Shown piece by piece: positions 28,438 through 35,788 of a stretch of DNA of 64,000 bases. Made by a program: the position numbers and the translations under genes. The first letter of the stretch is position 1; each line of letters opens with the position of its first letter. Source of the stretch: Methylomonas rapida (GTDB taxonomy: Bacteria; Pseudomonadota; Gammaproteobacteria; Methylococcales; Methylomonadaceae); the NCBI RefSeq assembly GCF_024360925.2, contig NZ_CP113517.1, positions 372,001 to 436,000 on the forward strand, written 5' to 3'. The notes beneath the pieces are model-generated. The model searched no databases. It saw nothing but the letters and a program-made list of their open reading frames with translations, and was not told where the DNA came from.

Positions 28438-28752
28438 ATGAAAAGGCTTTTAACGATCTTGGTCCTGTGTCCTGTCTATGCGTTTGCCGCGCCGGTTAAT
28501 GTCAATCGGGCCGATGCCGAAACGATTTCGGAATCCCTGACGGGAATTGGCCCGAAGAAGGCAGATGCCATCGTTCAGTATCGAAAGGAACATGGGGATT
28601 TTCAGTCATTGAAGGATCTGGAGAATGTCAGCGGCATTGGCGAGAAAACCCTTCAGGCCAATGAAAAAGACATTCGCTTCACGGATGATTTGAGCGATAA
28701 GTCATCCGCGGAAAAAGGTGCGGTAGCTGTGGATAAAAAAGGCGCCAGATAG
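28438..28752 (+). CDS. ComEA-like helix-hairpin-helix protein
   Basis: 104 residues: signal peptide (ending FAA, about residue 18), then a ComEA-type double helix-hairpin-helix DNA-binding domain (VNVNRADAETISESLTGIGPKKADAIVQYR; LENVSGIGEKTLQAN) and a charged tail. Secreted HhH proteins of this kind bind DNA in the periplasm during uptake or act at the cell surface. AGGAGAAATATC precedes the ATG. Confidence 0.87.
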   Translation: MKRLLTILVLCPVYAFAAPVNVNRADAETISESLTGIGPKKADAIVQYRKEHGDFQSLKDLENVSGIGEKTLQANEKDIRFTDDLSDKSSAEKGAVAVDKKGAR

Positions 28753-28767
28753 TAAGCGCTAAGGATT

Positions 28768-28801
28768 GGGGTGCGTCGCCGGTCGCGGCGGCGCTCCTCG
28801 A
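28768..28801. repeat. REP-like G/C-rich fragment
   Basis: GTGCGTCGCCGGTCGC followed by GGCGGCGCTCCTC resembles one half of the REP-like unit near 17174-17216. It lies in the 271-base gap before hxlA and may end comEA transcription. Apart from this and the promoter listed next, the gap has no visible gene. Confidence 0.4.
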
Positions 28802-28897
28802 CGGCAGAGTTGGTGCCAGGTTGGCGGATGATTGATGCCGAATATTACGCGACCAATTCTCGAGGCAAATGAACTGTGAGCTACTGAGTTGCAGGCA

Positions 28898-28927
28898 TTG
28901 ACAGCCATCCCATTTCTATCATACAGT
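28898..28927 (+). promoter_or_regulatory. Candidate promoter of hxlAB
   Basis: Perfect TTGACA (28898-28903), 18-base spacer, TACAGT (28922-28927). It would give about 90 bases of leader before hxlA. The spacer is slightly long and the -10 imperfect. Confidence 0.45.
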
Positions 28928-29023
28928 TACGGACGCATCACGAGTAGGTGATAAGCCTAGCAGATTGCGGCAGTTGGCAAAATCAGCTATTACTAATAAT
29001 TAAAAACTTTCGGAGCACATCAC

Positions 29024-29671
29024 ATGGCAAGACCATTAATTCAAATGGCGTTGGACTCACTGGATTTCGACCAAACCGTGGCATTGGCGGATCAAGTGGC
29101 GCCATATGTGGATATTTTTGAAATCGGTACCCCTTGCATCAAATACAACGGTATCAACCTGGTTAAAGCGTTGAGAGAACGTTACCCTGACAAACTGTTG
29201 CTGGTTGACCTGAAAACCATGGATGCTGGCGAATACGAAGCCGGTGCATTCTATGCGGCTGGTGCCGACATCTGCACCGTATTGGGTGTGTCTGGTCTGG
29301 CTACCATCGGTGGCGTCATCAAGGCTGCGAAAAAACACGCGGCCGAAGTTCAAGTTGACCTGATCAACGTGCCGAACAAAGCAGAGTGCGCACGCGAATC
29401 TGCAAAATTGGGCGCGCAAATCATGGGCGTTCACACCGGTCTGGACGCGCAAGCCGCGGGCCAAACCCCATTTACCGACCTGAATGAAGTTGCCTCCTTG
29501 GGCTTGAACGTTCGTGTTTCTGTTGCTGGCGGTATCAAACCTGCGACTATTGATCAAACCGTTAAAGCGGGCGCAAACATCATCGTTGTTGGCGCAGCGA
29601 TCTACGGTGCGCCGTCACCTGCCGAAGCAGCGCGTGAAATTCGTGAATTGGTAGAAGCAGCAGCGGTATAA
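29024..29671 (+). CDS. hxlA: 3-hexulose-6-phosphate synthase
   Basis: 215 residues. Key RuMP enzyme: condenses formaldehyde with ribulose 5-phosphate to D-arabino-3-hexulose 6-phosphate. It belongs to the OMP decarboxylase superfamily, with MALDSLDFDQTV, the metal/catalytic DLKTMDAGEYE (DxKxxD) and phosphate loop SVAGGIKPATI. Codon use is strongly biased, consistent with high expression. phi follows after three bases. Confidence 0.98.
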   Translation: MARPLIQMALDSLDFDQTVALADQVAPYVDIFEIGTPCIKYNGINLVKALRERYPDKLLLVDLKTMDAGEYEAGAFYAAGADICTVLGVSGLATIGGVIKAAKKHAAEVQVDLINVPNKAECARESAKLGAQIMGVHTGLDAQAAGQTPFTDLNEVASLGLNVRVSVAGGIKPATIDQTVKAGANIIVVGAAIYGAPSPAEAAREIRELVEAAAV

Positions 29672-29674
29672 GCC

Positions 29675-30208
29675 ATGCATAGAGATTTAATCGTAAACAA
29701 AATTTCAGGTATTCTGGAAGCTACGCCGGATTCTTACGACAAAGCACTGACCGAACTGCTGGATCAAGCCAAGCGGATATTCGTATCCGGGGCTGGGCGT
29801 TCAGGCTTGATTGGTCGTTTTTTTGCGATGCGCCTGATGCACAGTGGCTACGACGTCAGCGTGGTGGGTGAAATCGTAACGCCAAGCATCAAAGCTGGCG
29901 ATTTGCTGATCATCATCTCAGGTTCAGGTGAAACCGAGCAGTTGATTGCGTTCACCAAAAAAGCCAAAGAAATCGGCGCAAAAATCTGTTTGATTTCCGC
30001 AAAAGATGACTCGACCATTGGTGATATGGCTGATGTGACCTTGCAAATTGGCAGAGCCGAACAATACGGTAAAGTCAAAGGCATGCCGATGGGAACCGTG
30101 TTCGAACTGTCGACCCTGTTTTTCTTGGAAGCCACTATTTCTCATGTGATTCATGAAAAAGGCATTCCTGAAGAAGAGATGAGATCAAGGCACGCTAACC
30201 TAGAGTAA
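29675..30208 (+). CDS. hxlB: 6-phospho-3-hexuloisomerase
   Basis: 177 residues. Isomerises 3-hexulose 6-phosphate to fructose 6-phosphate, the second RuMP step. SIS-domain motif FVSGAGRSGLIGRFFAMRLMHSG and IISGSGETEQLI are clear. Forms a two-gene operon with hxlA ending at the terminator 30216-30248. Confidence 0.97.
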   Translation: MHRDLIVNKISGILEATPDSYDKALTELLDQAKRIFVSGAGRSGLIGRFFAMRLMHSGYDVSVVGEIVTPSIKAGDLLIIISGSGETEQLIAFTKKAKEIGAKICLISAKDDSTIGDMADVTLQIGRAEQYGKVKGMPMGTVFELSTLFFLEATISHVIHEKGIPEEEMRSRHANLE

Positions 30209-30215
30209 AAAGCTT

Positions 30216-30248
30216 AAGACCTGCGGCCTTTGGCCTGCAGGTCTTTTA
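30216..30248 (+). terminator. hxlAB terminator
   Basis: AAGACCTGC pairs with GCAGGTCTT, with an inner GGCC/GGCC and a one-base bulge, followed by TTTACATTTT. Moderately strong stem just after the hxlB stop. Confidence 0.7.
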
Positions 30249-30395
30249 CATTTTGGGTGTCAAGGTATTACCGATTCCAGCAGTCTGACAATGTAGAGTG
30301 TGGTTTTGGTTGGCCTTGCAATTCACCAAGCCTCAGCCAGAACGATGTTTGGAGAAGCAAACGTCGAACCTAAACAAAATAATAAGGAGACCAAC

Positions 30396-32405
30396 ATGCC
30401 TTCGCGCCGAGACTTAGCGAACGCCATCCGCGCACTCAGCATGGACGCCGTACAAAAAGCCAACTCAGGACACCCTGGTGCCCCGATGGGGATGGCTGAC
30501 ATCGCAGAAGTATTGTGGAACGACTTTCTGCAACACAACCCCACCAATCCCAAATGGGCCAACCGTGACCGTTTCATCCTGTCCAACGGCCATGGCTCGA
30601 TGCTGATTTATTCGTTGTTGCACTTGAGCGGCTACAACCTGCCGATCGAAGAACTGAAACAGTTCCGTCAATTGCACTCCCAAACCCCAGGCCATCCGGA
30701 ATACGGTTATACCGACGGTGTCGAAACCACCACCGGTCCCTTGGGTCAAGGTATCACCAACGCGGTTGGTTTCGCGTTGGCCGAACGCACCCTGGCCGGC
30801 CAATTCAACCGTCCTGGCCATGACATCGTCGATCACCACACCTACGTATTCCTGGGCGACGGCTGCTTGATGGAAGGTATTTCCCACGAAGCCTGCTCGC
30901 TGGCCGGCTCCATGGGTCTGGGCAAACTGATCGCCTTCTACGACGACAACAACATCTCGATCGACGGTGAAGTGCGTGGTCACGGCAACGTGCACGGCTG
31001 GTTCCACGACGACACCCCGAAACGCTTCGAAGCCTACGGCTGGCACGTGATTCCAAAAGTCGACGGCCACGATCCGGAAGCGGTGAGAAAAGCCATCGAA
31101 GCCGCGAAAAAAGTCACCGACAAACCGTCCATCATCTGCTGCCAAACCATCATCGGTTTCGGTTCGCCGAACAAACAAGGCAAGGAAGAATGCCACGGTG
31201 CCGCGTTGGGCGAAGCCGAAGTGGCTGCGACCCGCGAACAACTGGGCTGGCCGCACGCCCCCTTCGAAATTCCGGCCGACATTCGCGCCGGTTGGGACGC
31301 CAAAGCCAAAGGTGAACGTCTGGAAAGCGCCTGGAACGAAAAGTTCGCCGCCTACAAAGCCGCGCATCCTGAACTGGCCGCCGAATTCGAACGCCGCATG
31401 GCCGGTGAACTGCCGAAAGACTGGCACGAAAAAGCCAATGCCTTCATCGCTGCCGTCAACGACAAAGGCGAAACCATCGCCAGCCGTAAAGCCTCGCAAA
31501 ACGCCCTGAACGGCTTCGGTCCGTTGTTGCCTGAACTGATGGGCGGTTCCGCCGACCTGGCCGGCTCCAACCTGACCTTGTGGTCCGGCTGCAAAGACGT
31601 CTGCGCGCCAGGCCATGACGGCAACTACGTCTACTACGGCGTGCGCGAATTCGGCATGGCTGCGATCATGAACGGCATCGTGCTGCACGGCGGTTTCCGT
31701 CCGTATGGCGCCACCTTCCTGATGTTCAGCGAATACGCCCGTAACGCGCTGCGTATGGCCGCACTGATGAAAGCGCCGAGCATCTTCGTATTCACCCACG
31801 ACTCCATCGGTCTGGGCGAAGACGGCCCGACTCACCAGCCGGTCGAACAAACCGCCACCCTGCGCATGATTCCGAACATGCAAGTCTGGCGTCCCTGCGA
31901 CGCGGTGGAATCGGCCGTGAGCTGGAAAGCCGCGATCGACCGCCAAGACGGCCCGAGCACCTTGATCTTCTCGCGGCAAAACCTGCCGCACATGGCGCGC
32001 AGCCAGGCGCAGATCGATGCGATCAGCAAAGGCGGTTACGTGTTGCGTGGCGAAGGCACGCCCGATGCGATCATCATCGCCACGGGCTCCGAAGTCGAAC
32101 TGGCCGTCAAAGCCGCCGAAGCGCTGGAAGCCAAAGGCAAGAAAATCCGCGTGGTGTCCATGCCGTCGACCAACGTGTTCGAAGCACAAGACCAAGCCTA
32201 CAAAGACAGCGTATTGCCGCCTAGCGTCAGCAAACGCGTGGTCGTTGAAGCCGGTGTCACCGATGGCTGGTGGAAATATGTCGGCAGCCATGGCAGAATC
32301 GTCGGTCTGGACCGCTTCGGCGAATCCGCGCCGGCCGGACAACTCTTCAAAGAGTTCGGCTTCACCGTGGACAATGTCGTCGCCAATGTGGAAGCAGTGC
32401 TGTAA
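30396..32405 (+). CDS. tkt: Transketolase
   Basis: 669 residues from the ATG at 30396, which has AAGGAGA upstream; a GTG or TTG start 96 bases earlier adds non-family residues. Thiamine-diphosphate enzyme that rearranges sugar phosphates to regenerate ribulose 5-phosphate acceptors for the RuMP cycle. Shows [15 protein letters not shown], the ThDP motif [25 protein letters not shown] and [14 protein letters not shown]. Its third codon positions are strikingly C-rich, which creates long antisense open frames that are not genes. Confidence 0.97.
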
Positions 32406-32416
32406 ATAATGAAAAA

Positions 32417-32442
32417 TTGAGGCCCGGCAAAGCGGGCCTCAA
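32417..32442 (+). terminator. Hairpin after tkt
   Basis: Perfect 10-pair stem TTGAGGCCCG/CGGGCCTCAA with loop GCAAAG. The following bases (TACCGTTT) are not a proper U-run, so it may be a partial terminator or a 3' stabiliser. Confidence 0.55.
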
Positions 32443-32472
32443 TACCGTTTCAACGAATCATAGGTGATAAAC

Positions 32473-33168
32473 GTGAAAAAAAATGAATTAACAAAAGCCG
32501 TATTGGCAGCTCTGGTTCTGGCTAGCTCCTCTGTAATGGCCGAATCCGACTACCCCGCGGCCGACTTTCAACCTAAAGTTGTTTACAACGACCCTGAATA
32601 CAAACAAGCCGAGCCTGCTGCAAAAGCTGAGGCTGCCGCGCCTAAAGTAGCGGCTCAGGCTGCGCAAGAAGTTGAGGCTGATTCAGCATATCCTGCGACC
32701 AATTTCCAGCCGAAAGTGCTTTATAGCGATTCAGAATATAAACATAGTTCAGCCGCTCCGGCTGCTTCAGGTTCGACTTCGAAAGCCTCATCCGCGCCAA
32801 AATCCGCTGCCAGCGCCGCCAATGAAGTCATTCAAACGGAAAAAGCAGGCTCGACCGATTTTTCCATGATTGGTTTGCTGGTTCTGGCTGCTGCCGGTTT
32901 CTTGGTTTATAGCAAAAAATCCGGCGGTAAATCCTCTGCCGTAGCGGCAACTGAAGATTACAGCAGAGCGGGCGATTCGACAGGTGTTGAAAAATACCTG
33001 GAAAAAATCGGTGCAAACAAAACCGGCGTGGCCAAATATCTAGAAAAACAAACAGCAAATCCTGCGACAGGGGTTGCAAAATACATGGCCAAGCAAATCG
33101 TCAAAGACAAAGAGGCTGCCGCTGCTCGCGCTACTGGCGTTGAAAAATATTTGCGCGATAAAGCCTAA
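32473..33168 (+). CDS. Membrane protein with FQPKV and TGVxKYL repeats, unknown
   Basis: 231 residues from a GTG at 32473, which has AGGTGAT at proper spacing; a GTG nine bases earlier is an alternative. Predicted signal peptide (1-23, ending VMA). Two repeats at 26-44 and 72-90 share YPA(A/T)xFQPKVxYxDxEYK. An Ala/Ser/Lys-rich linker, one membrane helix (about 131-147) and a cytoplasmic tail follow. The tail carries four TGV(E/A)KY(L/M) motifs at 170, 184, 199 and 221. No known domain is recognised. Position between tkt and tal suggests a link to the RuMP enzymes, for example as a tether, but nothing in the sequence proves it. Confidence 0.75.
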   Translation: MKKNELTKAVLAALVLASSSVMAESDYPAADFQPKVVYNDPEYKQAEPAAKAEAAAPKVAAQAAQEVEADSAYPATNFQPKVLYSDSEYKHSSAAPAASGSTSKASSAPKSAASAANEVIQTEKAGSTDFSMIGLLVLAAAGFLVYSKKSGGKSSAVAATEDYSRAGDSTGVEKYLEKIGANKTGVAKYLEKQTANPATGVAKYMAKQIVKDKEAAAARATGVEKYLRDKA

Positions 33169-33443
33169 TGCTTATGTGGGTAGTTCTGATTGAAAGCGTT
33201 GTTTGAGATCCAGGCTACCTGCATTAACACGACTTGGATATTGCTAAAGGGATCGCCACAAGTTGCGCCTTATTTGACTACCTTGTGTAGGCTGAGGTCG
33301 CGAGGAGTGGCGATTTTGCTTTTAAAGCCAAGCAGGCAAAGCGACTGAATTTTATGGGCAATTCCTGGCGTTTACCTTGGCGGTGAACGACGCAGAATTG
33401 CCGAAGTAGATTTAAATCCATTCATATTAACGAGGATATTTTC

Positions 33444-34430
33444 ATGGCAAGAAACTTACTTGAGCAACTCCGCGAGATGACCGTTGTTGTTGCCGATACC
33501 GGTGACATCCAGGCGATCGAAACCTTCAAGCCGCGCGATGCAACGACCAACCCGTCTTTGATCACCGCCGCGGCGCAAATGCCGCAATATCAAGGCATCG
33601 TTGACGACACCTTGAAAGGTGCGCGTGCGACGTTGGGTGCCAGTGCTTCAGCTGCCGAGGTGGCTTCATTGGCGTTCGATCGTTTGGCGGTTTCTTTCGG
33701 TTTGAAAATCCTGGAAATCATCGAAGGTCGCGTTTCCACCGAGGTTGATGCGCGTTTGTCTTATGACACCGAAGGCACTATTGCCAAAGGCCGGGATCTG
33801 ATCAAACAATACGAAGCTGCAGGTGTTTCCAAAGAGCGCGTACTGATCAAAATTGCCGCGACCTGGGAAGGCATCCAGGCAGCTGCCGTTTTGGAAAAAG
33901 AAGGTATTCACACCAACTTGACCCTGTTGTTCGGTCTGCACCAGGCGATTGCTTGTGCCGAAAACGGCATTACCCTGATTTCTCCGTTTGTTGGCCGTAT
34001 TCTGGACTGGTACAAAAAAGACACTGGCCGCGACTCTTATCCTTCCAACGAAGATCCTGGCGTATTGTCTGTAACTGAAGTTTATAACTACTACAAAAAA
34101 TTTGGTTATAAAACCGAAGTCATGGGCGCGAGCTTCCGTAACATCGGCGAGATCACCGAATTGGCGGGTTGCGATCTGTTGACCATCGCGCCTTCTCTGC
34201 TGGCCGAACTGCAATCCGTTGAAGGTGATTTGCCACGCAAACTGGATCCTGCAAAAGCAGCCGGTTCTTCGATCGAAAAAATCAGCGTTGACAAAGCGAC
34301 TTTCGACCGCATGCACGAAGAAAACCGCATGGCCAAAGAAAAACTGGCCGAAGGTATCGACGGTTTTGCGAAAGCGCTGGAAACCTTGGAAAAATTGTTG
34401 GCGGATCGTTTGGCTGCTCTGGAAGCATAA
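33444..34430 (+). CDS. tal: Transaldolase
   Basis: 328 residues, TalB-type length. Class I aldolase transferring dihydroxyacetone units between sugar phosphates in RuMP regeneration. Schiff-base Lys in [16 protein letters not shown]; other signatures are [12 protein letters not shown] and [46 protein letters not shown] precedes the ATG. The 275-base gap before it shows no gene and no obvious promoter. Confidence 0.97.
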
Positions 34431-34444
34431 AAAAAAGAGCGAAT

Positions 34445-34511
34445 CGCGTGCGAAATCGCGCACGCGTTGCTTTTCCGATTTGCAAGGCCGCCGAATCGAG
34501 TACGCGGCCTT
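34445..34511 (+). terminator. Two successive hairpins between tal and fba
   Basis: CGCGTGCG (34445-34452)/CGCACGCG (34459-34466), followed shortly by TTTT, then AAGGCCGC (34484-34491)/GCGGCCTT (34504-34511). The first is a plausible tal terminator; the second lies about 27 bases before the fba ATG and may be a leader or processing element. Confidence 0.55.
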
Positions 34512-34537
34512 CGTTCATTATTGATAGGATAAATTTC

Positions 34538-35614
34538 ATGACAAAAATCTTAGATGTTGTAAAACCCGGCGTTGTCACCGGTGAAGATGTGCAAAAAATT
34601 TTCGCAATCTGCAAAGAAAACAACTTTGCCTTGCCAGCCGTCAACGTGATCAGTACCGATACCATTAATGCGGTATTGGAAGCGGCCGCCAAAGCCAAAT
34701 CACCTGTTGTTATCCAGTTTTCAAATGGCGGCGCGGCTTTCGTTGCCGGTAAAGGTTTGAAATTGGAAGGTCAAGGCTGTTCGATTCATGGTGCCATTTC
34801 AGGTGCTCACCACGTTCACCGCATGGCGGAACTCTATGGTGTACCTGTCATTCTGCATACCGATCACGCGGCGAAAAAATTGCTGCCATGGGTAGATGGT
34901 ATGCTGGATGAAGGTGAAAAATTCTTTGCGGCCACCGGCAAGCCTTTGTTCAGCTCGCACATGCTGGACTTGTCCGAAGAGAGCCTGGAAGAAAACATCG
35001 AAATCTGTGGTAAATACTTGGCGCGCATGGCAAAAATGGGTATGACCCTGGAAATCGAACTGGGCTGCACCGGCGGTGAAGAAGACGGCGTGGACAATAG
35101 CGGCATGGATCATTCCGCGTTGTACACCCAGCCGGAAGACGTGGCTTACGCGTATGAGCACCTGAGCAAAATCAGCCCTAACTTCACGATTGCGGCTTCT
35201 TTCGGCAACGTGCACGGCGTTTACTCGCCAGGAAACGTCAAGCTGACGCCAAAAATTCTGGATAACTCGCAAAAATACGTATCCGAAAAATTCGGCTTGC
35301 CAGCTAAATCATTGACCTTCGTATTCCATGGCGGCTCTGGTTCGTCTCCGGAAGAAATCAAGGAATCCATCAGCTATGGCGTAGTGAAAATGAACATCGA
35401 TACCGATACCCAATGGGCAACCTGGGAAGGCGTGATGAACTTCTACAAGAAAAACGAAGGCTATCTGCAAGGCCAGATCGGCAACCCGGAAGGTGCCGAC
35501 AAGCCGAACAAAAAATACTATGACCCACGCGTATGGCAACGTGCCGGCCAAGAAGGCATGGTTGCACGTCTGCAACAAGCATTCCAGGAATTGAATGCAG
35601 TAAACACGCTGTAA
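34538..35614 (+). CDS. fba: Fructose-bisphosphate aldolase, class II
   Basis: 358 residues from the ATG at 34538 (TAGGAT upstream), as in E. coli FbaA; the longer frame begins in the hairpin region. Zinc-dependent cleavage of fructose 1,6-bisphosphate. Zinc and catalytic residues lie in VILHTDHAAKKLLPW, EIELGCTGGEEDGVDN, GNVHGVYSPGNV and VFHGGSGSSPEEI. Together with hxlAB, tkt and tal it completes a RuMP block. Ends at a strong terminator. Confidence 0.97.
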   Translation: MTKILDVVKPGVVTGEDVQKIFAICKENNFALPAVNVISTDTINAVLEAAAKAKSPVVIQFSNGGAAFVAGKGLKLEGQGCSIHGAISGAHHVHRMAELYGVPVILHTDHAAKKLLPWVDGMLDEGEKFFAATGKPLFSSHMLDLSEESLEENIEICGKYLARMAKMGMTLEIELGCTGGEEDGVDNSGMDHSALYTQPEDVAYAYEHLSKISPNFTIAASFGNVHGVYSPGNVKLTPKILDNSQKYVSEKFGLPAKSLTFVFHGGSGSSPEEIKESISYGVVKMNIDTDTQWATWEGVMNFYKKNEGYLQGQIGNPEGADKPNKKYYDPRVWQRAGQEGMVARLQQAFQELNAVNTL

Positions 35615-35625
35615 ATCTTGCAAGG

Positions 35626-35663
35626 CGACAAAGAGGCGTTGTGCCTCTTTGTCGTTTTCTTCT
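35626..35663 (+). terminator. fba terminator
   Basis: Perfect 12-pair stem CGACAAAGAGGC/GCCTCTTTGTCG with loop GTTGT, followed by TTTTCTTCT. Closes the RuMP block. Confidence 0.92.
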
Positions 35664-35788
35664 GTCGTTGCCTGAGTGTCGAAAGTTTGACCCTTGCGAC
35701 GAAGTCAAAAAGTTCTACATTTGAACTATCTTTGTAAAGCTTGATTCATCTTGATGAGCTTTTCTTCTAAAACAATGTTTTTTCTTGT

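Follow-up and report, generated by a model that had tools for sequence, protein, structure and literature searches.

A membrane-anchored TGV-motif array protein in the RuMP operon of Methylomonas rapida, a candidate docking platform for HPS

The window analyzed here, a stretch of 64,000 nucleotides from the Methylomonas rapida contig NZ_CP113517.1, carries a RuMP operon in which the gene for a motif-array protein sits between tkt, ending at position 32405, and tal, starting at 33444. The operon and the features of the array protein are as follows:

29024..29671, plus strand: hps, the proposed client, with Leu58, Glu108 and Arg164 present (TIGR03128, 254.9 bits, cut-off 200)
29675..30208, plus strand: phi, 6-phospho-3-hexuloisomerase (TIGR03127, 208.9 bits, cut-off 160)
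30396..32405, plus strand: tkt, transketolase (passes the NCBIfam cut-off; the listed frame starts at 30300)
32473..33168, plus strand: membrane-anchored TGV-array protein, 231 aa (translation, alignment, hydropathy, shuffle test)
32473..32541, plus strand: signal-peptide-like N-terminus, about residues 1-23 (hydropathy, alignment)
32551..32604, plus strand: first exported repeat, YPAADFQPKVVYNDPEYK, residues 27-44 (translation, alignment)
32689..32742, plus strand: second exported repeat, YPATNFQPKVLYSDSEYK, residues 73-90 (translation, alignment)
32851..32919, plus strand: membrane helix, about residues 127-149 (hydropathy; charge shift across the helix in 41 relatives)
32980..33153, plus strand: predicted cytoplasmic array, TGV motifs at residues 170, 184, 199 and 221 (translation, alignment, motif logo)
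33444..34430, plus strand: tal, transaldolase (TIGR00874, 469.4 bits, cut-off 396.2)
34448..35614, plus strand: fba-like open frame, an aldolase by reading (conserved neighbour in related loci)

The ATG at 30396 was taken as the start of tkt, following the second tkt copy of this genome. Translation of the array gene begins at a GTG codon, with an alternative GTG located three codons upstream, at 32464. The gap between tkt and the array gene contains an 11-pair hairpin (32416-32443) that has a T-rich stretch after it when read on the minus strand but not on the plus strand, and an Rfam scan of window positions 28700-35700 returned no matches.

The original prediction described the product as a 231-residue protein encoded between tkt and tal, with two repeats, one membrane helix and four TGV motifs, and translation confirmed this description. 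The exported repeats follow the pattern YPAxxFQPKVxYxDxEYK, and the motifs occur in the order TGVEKYL (residue 170), TGVAKYL (184), TGVAKYM (199) and TGVEKYL (221). When the protein was shuffled 100,000 times, at least one copy of TGVxKY[LM] arose in 2 shuffles and four copies in none. Both exported repeats and all four motifs are near-invariant, with variable linkers, in a 16-row alignment of the window protein and 15 relatives hand-picked among the 120 listed. The succession of signal, exported repeats, helix and array is found in 40 of 41 relatives (array proteins of 185-270 residues with the exported repeat pattern, from the fetched loci), the lone exception starting at a contig edge. Across these 41 proteins, the mean net charge shifts from -2.3 before the helix to +2.9 after it, so that, by the positive-inside rule, the array tail of the window protein should face the cytoplasm.

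The original prediction recognized no domain in this protein, and the family searches bear this out. Pfam yielded no families up to E=10, PHROGs no significant match, and NCBIfam two matches below the respective cut-offs (LPXTG_anchor, E=0.24; WGxxGxxG_fam, E=0.81); identity as an LPXTG cell-wall anchor was rejected at 12.1 bits against a cut-off of 15.9. The sole PDB match of the window protein, to a ribosomal protein (E=0.098), was taken as chance, and the array profile (A5) matched nothing in PDB up to E=1. No relatives of the array protein were confirmed among viral contigs and plasmids. The strings TGVxKYL, TGVAKYL and TGVEKYL were not found in any of the papers searched, and a literature search judged mostly by titles found no report of a methanotroph RuMP metabolon or scaffold; in the portion of PMC5802761 available to us, "metabolon" is the name of a company.

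To place the protein in a broader context, genomes representing 84,980 species, one per species, were scanned with two exact peptide patterns, which yielded 97 stretches, of which 65 were confirmed, representing 63 loci. These loci are labelled as Methylococcales genera or families or as unclassified proteobacteria, with the addition of one Methylophaga. RuMP enzyme genes are visible in 49 of the 63 loci; in the remaining 14, a contig end lies at most 0.7 kb ahead of the match, and 12 of the 14 carry the downstream neighbours of a second Methylomonas cluster described below. The usual gene order is hps-phi-tkt-array-(array)-tal-fba. Two loci (L041 and L046) carry an additional hps with a soluble array as its immediate downstream neighbour, no tkt or tal standing between. 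In Methylophagaceae, the array gene comes immediately after hps in 39 of 39 stretches (about 33 genomes); tal follows the array gene there, as in the usual operon. The arrays occur in two recurring forms that are often operon neighbours, namely, a membrane form with about 2-5 motifs (2-4 when counted strictly) and a soluble form with 4-17. Altogether, 83 array proteins contain 624 motif instances, a tally in which overlapping loci are counted more than once. The commonest spacing is 20 residues (219 intervals), followed by 15 (75), and the motif logo reveals conservation at positions left free by the pattern: +3 (A55 S18 E15), +8 (K58 R14) and +9 (Q62). The short form of Methylophagaceae, of ~100 residues, combines a conserved amphipathic start, MSxKGLFASICxFFxGLFSS, with 2-7 TGV/TSVERYI motifs; it aligns with the tail of the window protein at 98.8% probability in profile comparison, which, given that the repeats are so short, shows a shared motif rather than common descent.

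The same genome contains two further array loci, and a profile search across it returned only these three. A second RuMP cluster (L009) consists of hps, tkt, a 94-residue exported frame and a 453-residue soluble array. The exported frame (L009:9181-9465) comprises a signal and two YPAxxFQPKV repeats, without the membrane helix, and the soluble protein contains 18 motif-like repeats, many of them spaced by 20 residues; its 29-residue match to U1snRNP70_N (37 bits, cut-off 23) was taken as motif-like chance. Apart from L009, 14 loci (e.g., L052, L054, L060, L062 and L063) encode a short exported protein of 86-98 aa ahead of the soluble array. This second Methylomonas cluster, seen in L009, L060 and L062, includes hps and tkt, without phi or tal. 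The hps and tkt genes of the two clusters are duplicates (L009:9526-12332 versus window 29024-32405; protein identity of 100% and 99%), and in many relatives the contig breaks off shortly before the array gene, as expected from duplicated DNA. The third array (L010:7624-8124) is a membrane-anchored protein of 166 aa encoded close to a PQQ-dehydrogenase gene read as xoxF; a protein search for further close full-length relatives of it found none. The DNA pattern for GVx[KR]Y matched the genome 46 times, compared to 27 for the reversed pattern, with 17 matches inside the three array loci. Single-motif clients were rejected as a category, the other 29 matches lacking an in-frame [ST]GVx[KR]Y[LIMV], bar one 51-codon fragment, although TSV variants would escape a pattern that requires G-V.

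Arrays and HPS largely co-occur. The whole window protein is matched at E<=0.01 by 165 of 201 Methylococcales genomes, and 171 of the 201 encode HPS at E<=1e-20. Profile A5 was run on 60 of the 201, hand-chosen and weighted to doubtful cases: 34 were positive, all with HPS, and 26 negative, comprising 10 without an HPS match and 16 with HPS (G039, with an array match at E=0.2, was scored negative). Three assemblies of 60-300 contigs each (G119, G163 and G169) contain the whole protein with no HPS match, and another genome (G009) combines a whole-protein match at E=3e-13 with neither HPS match nor array. The array contig of G018, a possible binning contaminant, has matches nearly equal to those of G002, a member of another family. 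G018 was scored as array-positive among the 34, and in the HPS tree its own HPS is one of the 18 rows counted as array-less. Among 369 Gammaproteobacteria, HPS was detected at E<=1e-20 in 6, all of which are array-positive, five by the Methylophaga profile and the sixth (G003) by A5; the 363 genomes without HPS were screened with the Methylophaga profile rather than A5. A further gammaproteobacterial match (G229, E=6e-5) shows no motif and was discarded. In Methylophagaceae, 53 of 57 genomes carry a motif array, some only via a large kinase discussed below. To our knowledge, this family is methylotrophic without pMMO, and the proposed nearness of the protein to pMMO is not supported.

A third family, identified by inference as Methylophilaceae-like, contains no array in 100 genomes; the sole member checked for HPS (G960) encodes two copies, at 66 and 64% identity to that of the window. 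Six weak matches in these 100 genomes (E 0.38-0.71) disqualify the lone motif string as a specific marker; two of them represent TGVSRYI within GTGGTITGVSRYIK, a context which we take to be cysteine-synthase-like.

The 16 array-less Methylococcales with HPS encode an enzyme 59-71% identical to that of the window, whereas the array-linked HPS measured in the order are at least 72.8% identical, except in G018 (70%), the gap between the groups being narrow. The contrast is clearer inside operons: in two without arrays, HPS has diverged and PHI, Tkt or Tal have not. Compared to the window enzymes, array-less G061 has Tkt at 81.3%, Tal at 87.2% and PHI at 76.3%, with two HPS at 61.4 and 59.3%; G045 has Tkt at 82.7%, Tal at 86.4% and HPS at 71.2%; and G025 has PHI at 75.7% and HPS at 66.0%. 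The corresponding ranges in array-bearing kin of the same family are 81.2-83.6% for Tkt, 64-77% for PHI, 77-89% for Tal and 75.7-78.9% for HPS. In the PHI tree, G025 and G061 are placed among array-bearing relatives with short end branches (0.09 and 0.10); the HPS tree gives G025 an end branch of 0.31 and G061 end branches of 0.37/0.29, and groups both with other array-less HPS, the fork uniting all fourteen being weak (77/88). The pooled HPS-minus-PHI identity contrast (p=0.066) is carried by two genomes. In array-less family f6, HPS and PHI are both divergent, and in array-less genus g38 hps is isolated, outside the RuMP operon (two genomes read, G081 and G099). Replacement of the hps gene may lie behind part of this pattern. 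These sequence comparisons point to HPS, rather than RuMP enzymes in general, as the enzyme whose sequence evolution follows the arrays; accordingly worded, the tie to RuMP enzymes envisaged at the outset holds for gene neighbourhood and narrows to HPS for sequence evolution.

All 36 array-linked HPS rows combine Leu58, Glu108 and Arg164, three residues that none of the 18 array-less rows has together, the positions having been chosen from the same data (the search used 32 array-linked rows, including two second-copy HPS). Array-adjacent HPS of Methylophagaceae, 70-73% identical to that of the window, carries the signature in 35 of 35 rows, some genomes being included twice, and the second HPS copy of this family has Lys58 and Lys164 in 5 of 5. 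Second or fused HPS genes located away from arrays in array-bearing genomes (L246 and L249) keep the signature. On the PHI tree, counting any HPS copy of a locus, signature and array agree in 39 loci, 28 positive with and 11 negative without; the signature changed independently two or three times (sign test, p=0.5), numbers from which no significance is reachable, and it may represent the ancestral state of this HPS clade. From the general layout of the HPS/KGPDC barrel, residues 58, 84, 107-108 and 164 are presumably located close to the beginnings of strands, on the side of the barrel that points away from the active site, and this side would be the candidate face for binding the arrays.

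In RuMP methanotrophs, the central carbon intermediate, formaldehyde, is at the same time toxic, and it reaches the cytoplasmic RuMP cycle from methanol dehydrogenase in the periplasm. Given the genomic patterns above, we see about an even chance that a multivalent short-motif docking system for HPS operates in formaldehyde assimilation, with the window protein as its membrane anchor. The membrane form, with its 2-5 motifs, would hold HPS at the inner membrane face, near the entry of periplasm-made formaldehyde, and the soluble form, with its 4-17, would cross-link HPS into a cluster or condensate in the manner of EPYC1; the benefit would be fast capture of a toxic intermediate. The multivalent docking tail on a membrane anchor suggested originally is compatible with the pattern, a repeat array predicted to face the cytoplasm, but the membrane anchor is not a general attribute, the motif being found in long soluble arrays as well. 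Older reports are said to describe Methylococcus HPS as particulate and of high molecular weight. In the available part of a study of Methylomonas sp. DH-1, HPS and transaldolase are among five abundant proteins named from two-dimensional gels (PMC8645107), which lends plausibility to a highly concentrated client. Guides targeting the RuMP operons of Methylococcus lowered fitness, and the accessible part of that report names no array gene (PMC13108547).

That the arrays dock one or more other RuMP enzymes (transaldolase, PHI or transketolase), the HPS pattern reflecting replacement of hps in lineages that lost arrays, appears unlikely. The position of tal after the array gene, Methylophagaceae included, and of tkt just upstream of it in Methylococcales would suit such clients, and the clustering of G061 and G025 HPS with other array-less HPS is what replacement would cause. 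Nevertheless, Tal, Tkt and PHI are unchanged where arrays are missing, the second Methylomonas cluster has arrays without phi or tal, and the arrays that directly follow hps in L041 and L046 have neither tkt nor tal in between. Self-association of the motifs or their binding to the membrane, forming a structural mesh without a specific enzyme client, strikes us as improbable. Up to 17 similar repeats per protein and the amphipathic or hydrophobic N-terminal segments of the short and soluble forms (hydrophobic moment of 0.54 in the Methylophaga short form and 0.29 in the 453-aa protein) are in line with a mesh, but the helix of the repeat has little amphipathic character (0.22-0.41), and the link to hps as well as the HPS signature would be left unexplained.

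Binding of the motif to a hub outside the RuMP cycle, such as a polar or chemosensory organizer, with the seat in the RuMP operon reflecting shared expression or placement, is also doubtful, and it draws on the arrays located away from RuMP genes. Methylophagaceae encode a large CheA-type kinase with TGV/TSVERYI arrays inside its linkers. The one scanned (L213:6477-12176, G597) has 1,899 residues with Hpt, HATPase, CheW and receiver domains, and its neighbours, as read from size and layout, are pilG, pilH, pilI and pilJ; parts of array-bearing kinases were also found in L142 (G359) and L143/L216 (G202). Array matches fall in open frames of at least 700 residues in 34 of the 57 Methylophagaceae genomes, parts of three such proteins having been read. 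Furthermore, three Methylococcales genomes encode soluble arrays ending in a Cys/His-rich tail (L206:7145-8485, L207:7838-8671 and L208:7478-8374), with no RuMP genes in the 16 kb read around each. The motif search and context check that had been called for show array loci that are mostly RuMP-linked, with the kinase and these three proteins as the exceptions. Against a hub, arrays were found only in HPS lineages, the six HPS genomes among the 369 Gammaproteobacteria being the array genomes, and none turned up in the 100 Methylophilaceae-like genomes; were the hub a general one, a wider distribution would be expected, and the HPS divergence would be left unexplained. The kinase and the other off-RuMP arrays fit HPS docking only if they too recruit HPS; otherwise, the motif binds something else. 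A tentative, rather unlikely extension of HPS docking is that the TGV motif represents an HPS address code common to two families of RuMP methylotrophs, with the Methylophagaceae kinase docking HPS and thereby coupling one-carbon flux to chemosensory signalling.

Like repeat-motif linkers, the TGV arrays contain one short motif in several copies with variable spacers and are encoded or conserved with the putative client enzyme, HPS. We propose, by analogy, that they belong to the EPYC1/CsoS2-type functional class, which is not a sequence family. According to the available parts of two reports, EPYC1 carries multiple copies of a short linear motif that several other proteins have as well (PMC10614612, PMC8573418), and one of these describes shared motifs recruiting proteins to the pyrenoid as well as short motifs of CsoS2 and CsoSCA that bind the carbon-fixing enzyme of alpha-carboxysomes (PMC10614612). 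Short motif repeats, set in a mostly unstructured chain in EPYC1, the presence of a carbon-fixing enzyme alongside and the occurrence of the motif in several proteins are common to EPYC1 and the arrays. However, EPYC1 is eukaryotic, has Rubisco as its client, and its binding and phase separation are demonstrated; the arrays have no detected sequence relation to EPYC1, include membrane-anchored forms and have a different proposed client. CsoS2 and CsoSCA resemble the arrays in being bacterial and encoded in the operon of the carbon-fixing enzyme, with motif-enzyme binding only proposed for the arrays; they are tied to a protein shell and Rubisco, whereas the RuMP operons read here, in the window and related loci, contain no shell genes, and the window protein has no Pfam match. 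Engineered Mdh-Hps-Phi assemblies keep HPS near the formaldehyde source, favouring assimilation, as stated in the accessible part of that work (PMC8879981); these assemblies are man-made, and the TGV-array system would be their natural counterpart. A natural HPS tether, if true, would offer a handle on the passage of formaldehyde from the periplasmic methanol dehydrogenase to the RuMP cycle, provide a ready-made motif-client pair for engineered use of methanol and methane, and broaden motif-based clustering of enzymes beyond Rubisco to a further route of carbon fixation.

The anchor of the membrane form also occurs apart from the array. Weak whole-protein matches in array-less family f6 were rejected as array positives, since G034, the one read (L279), has no TGV tail: its homologous anchor, with two YPGAYFxPKV repeats and a helix, is followed by a charged tail of another kind, and its HPS lacks the Leu58/Glu108/Arg164 signature. 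This combination fits a modular design of anchor plus tail. In two loci of the Methylococcaceae family, the array of the membrane protein spans two reading frames (L212 of G003, in both copies; L209 of G049, in one of two copies). The split falls after the second of five motifs, and the other G049 copy carries all five in one frame.
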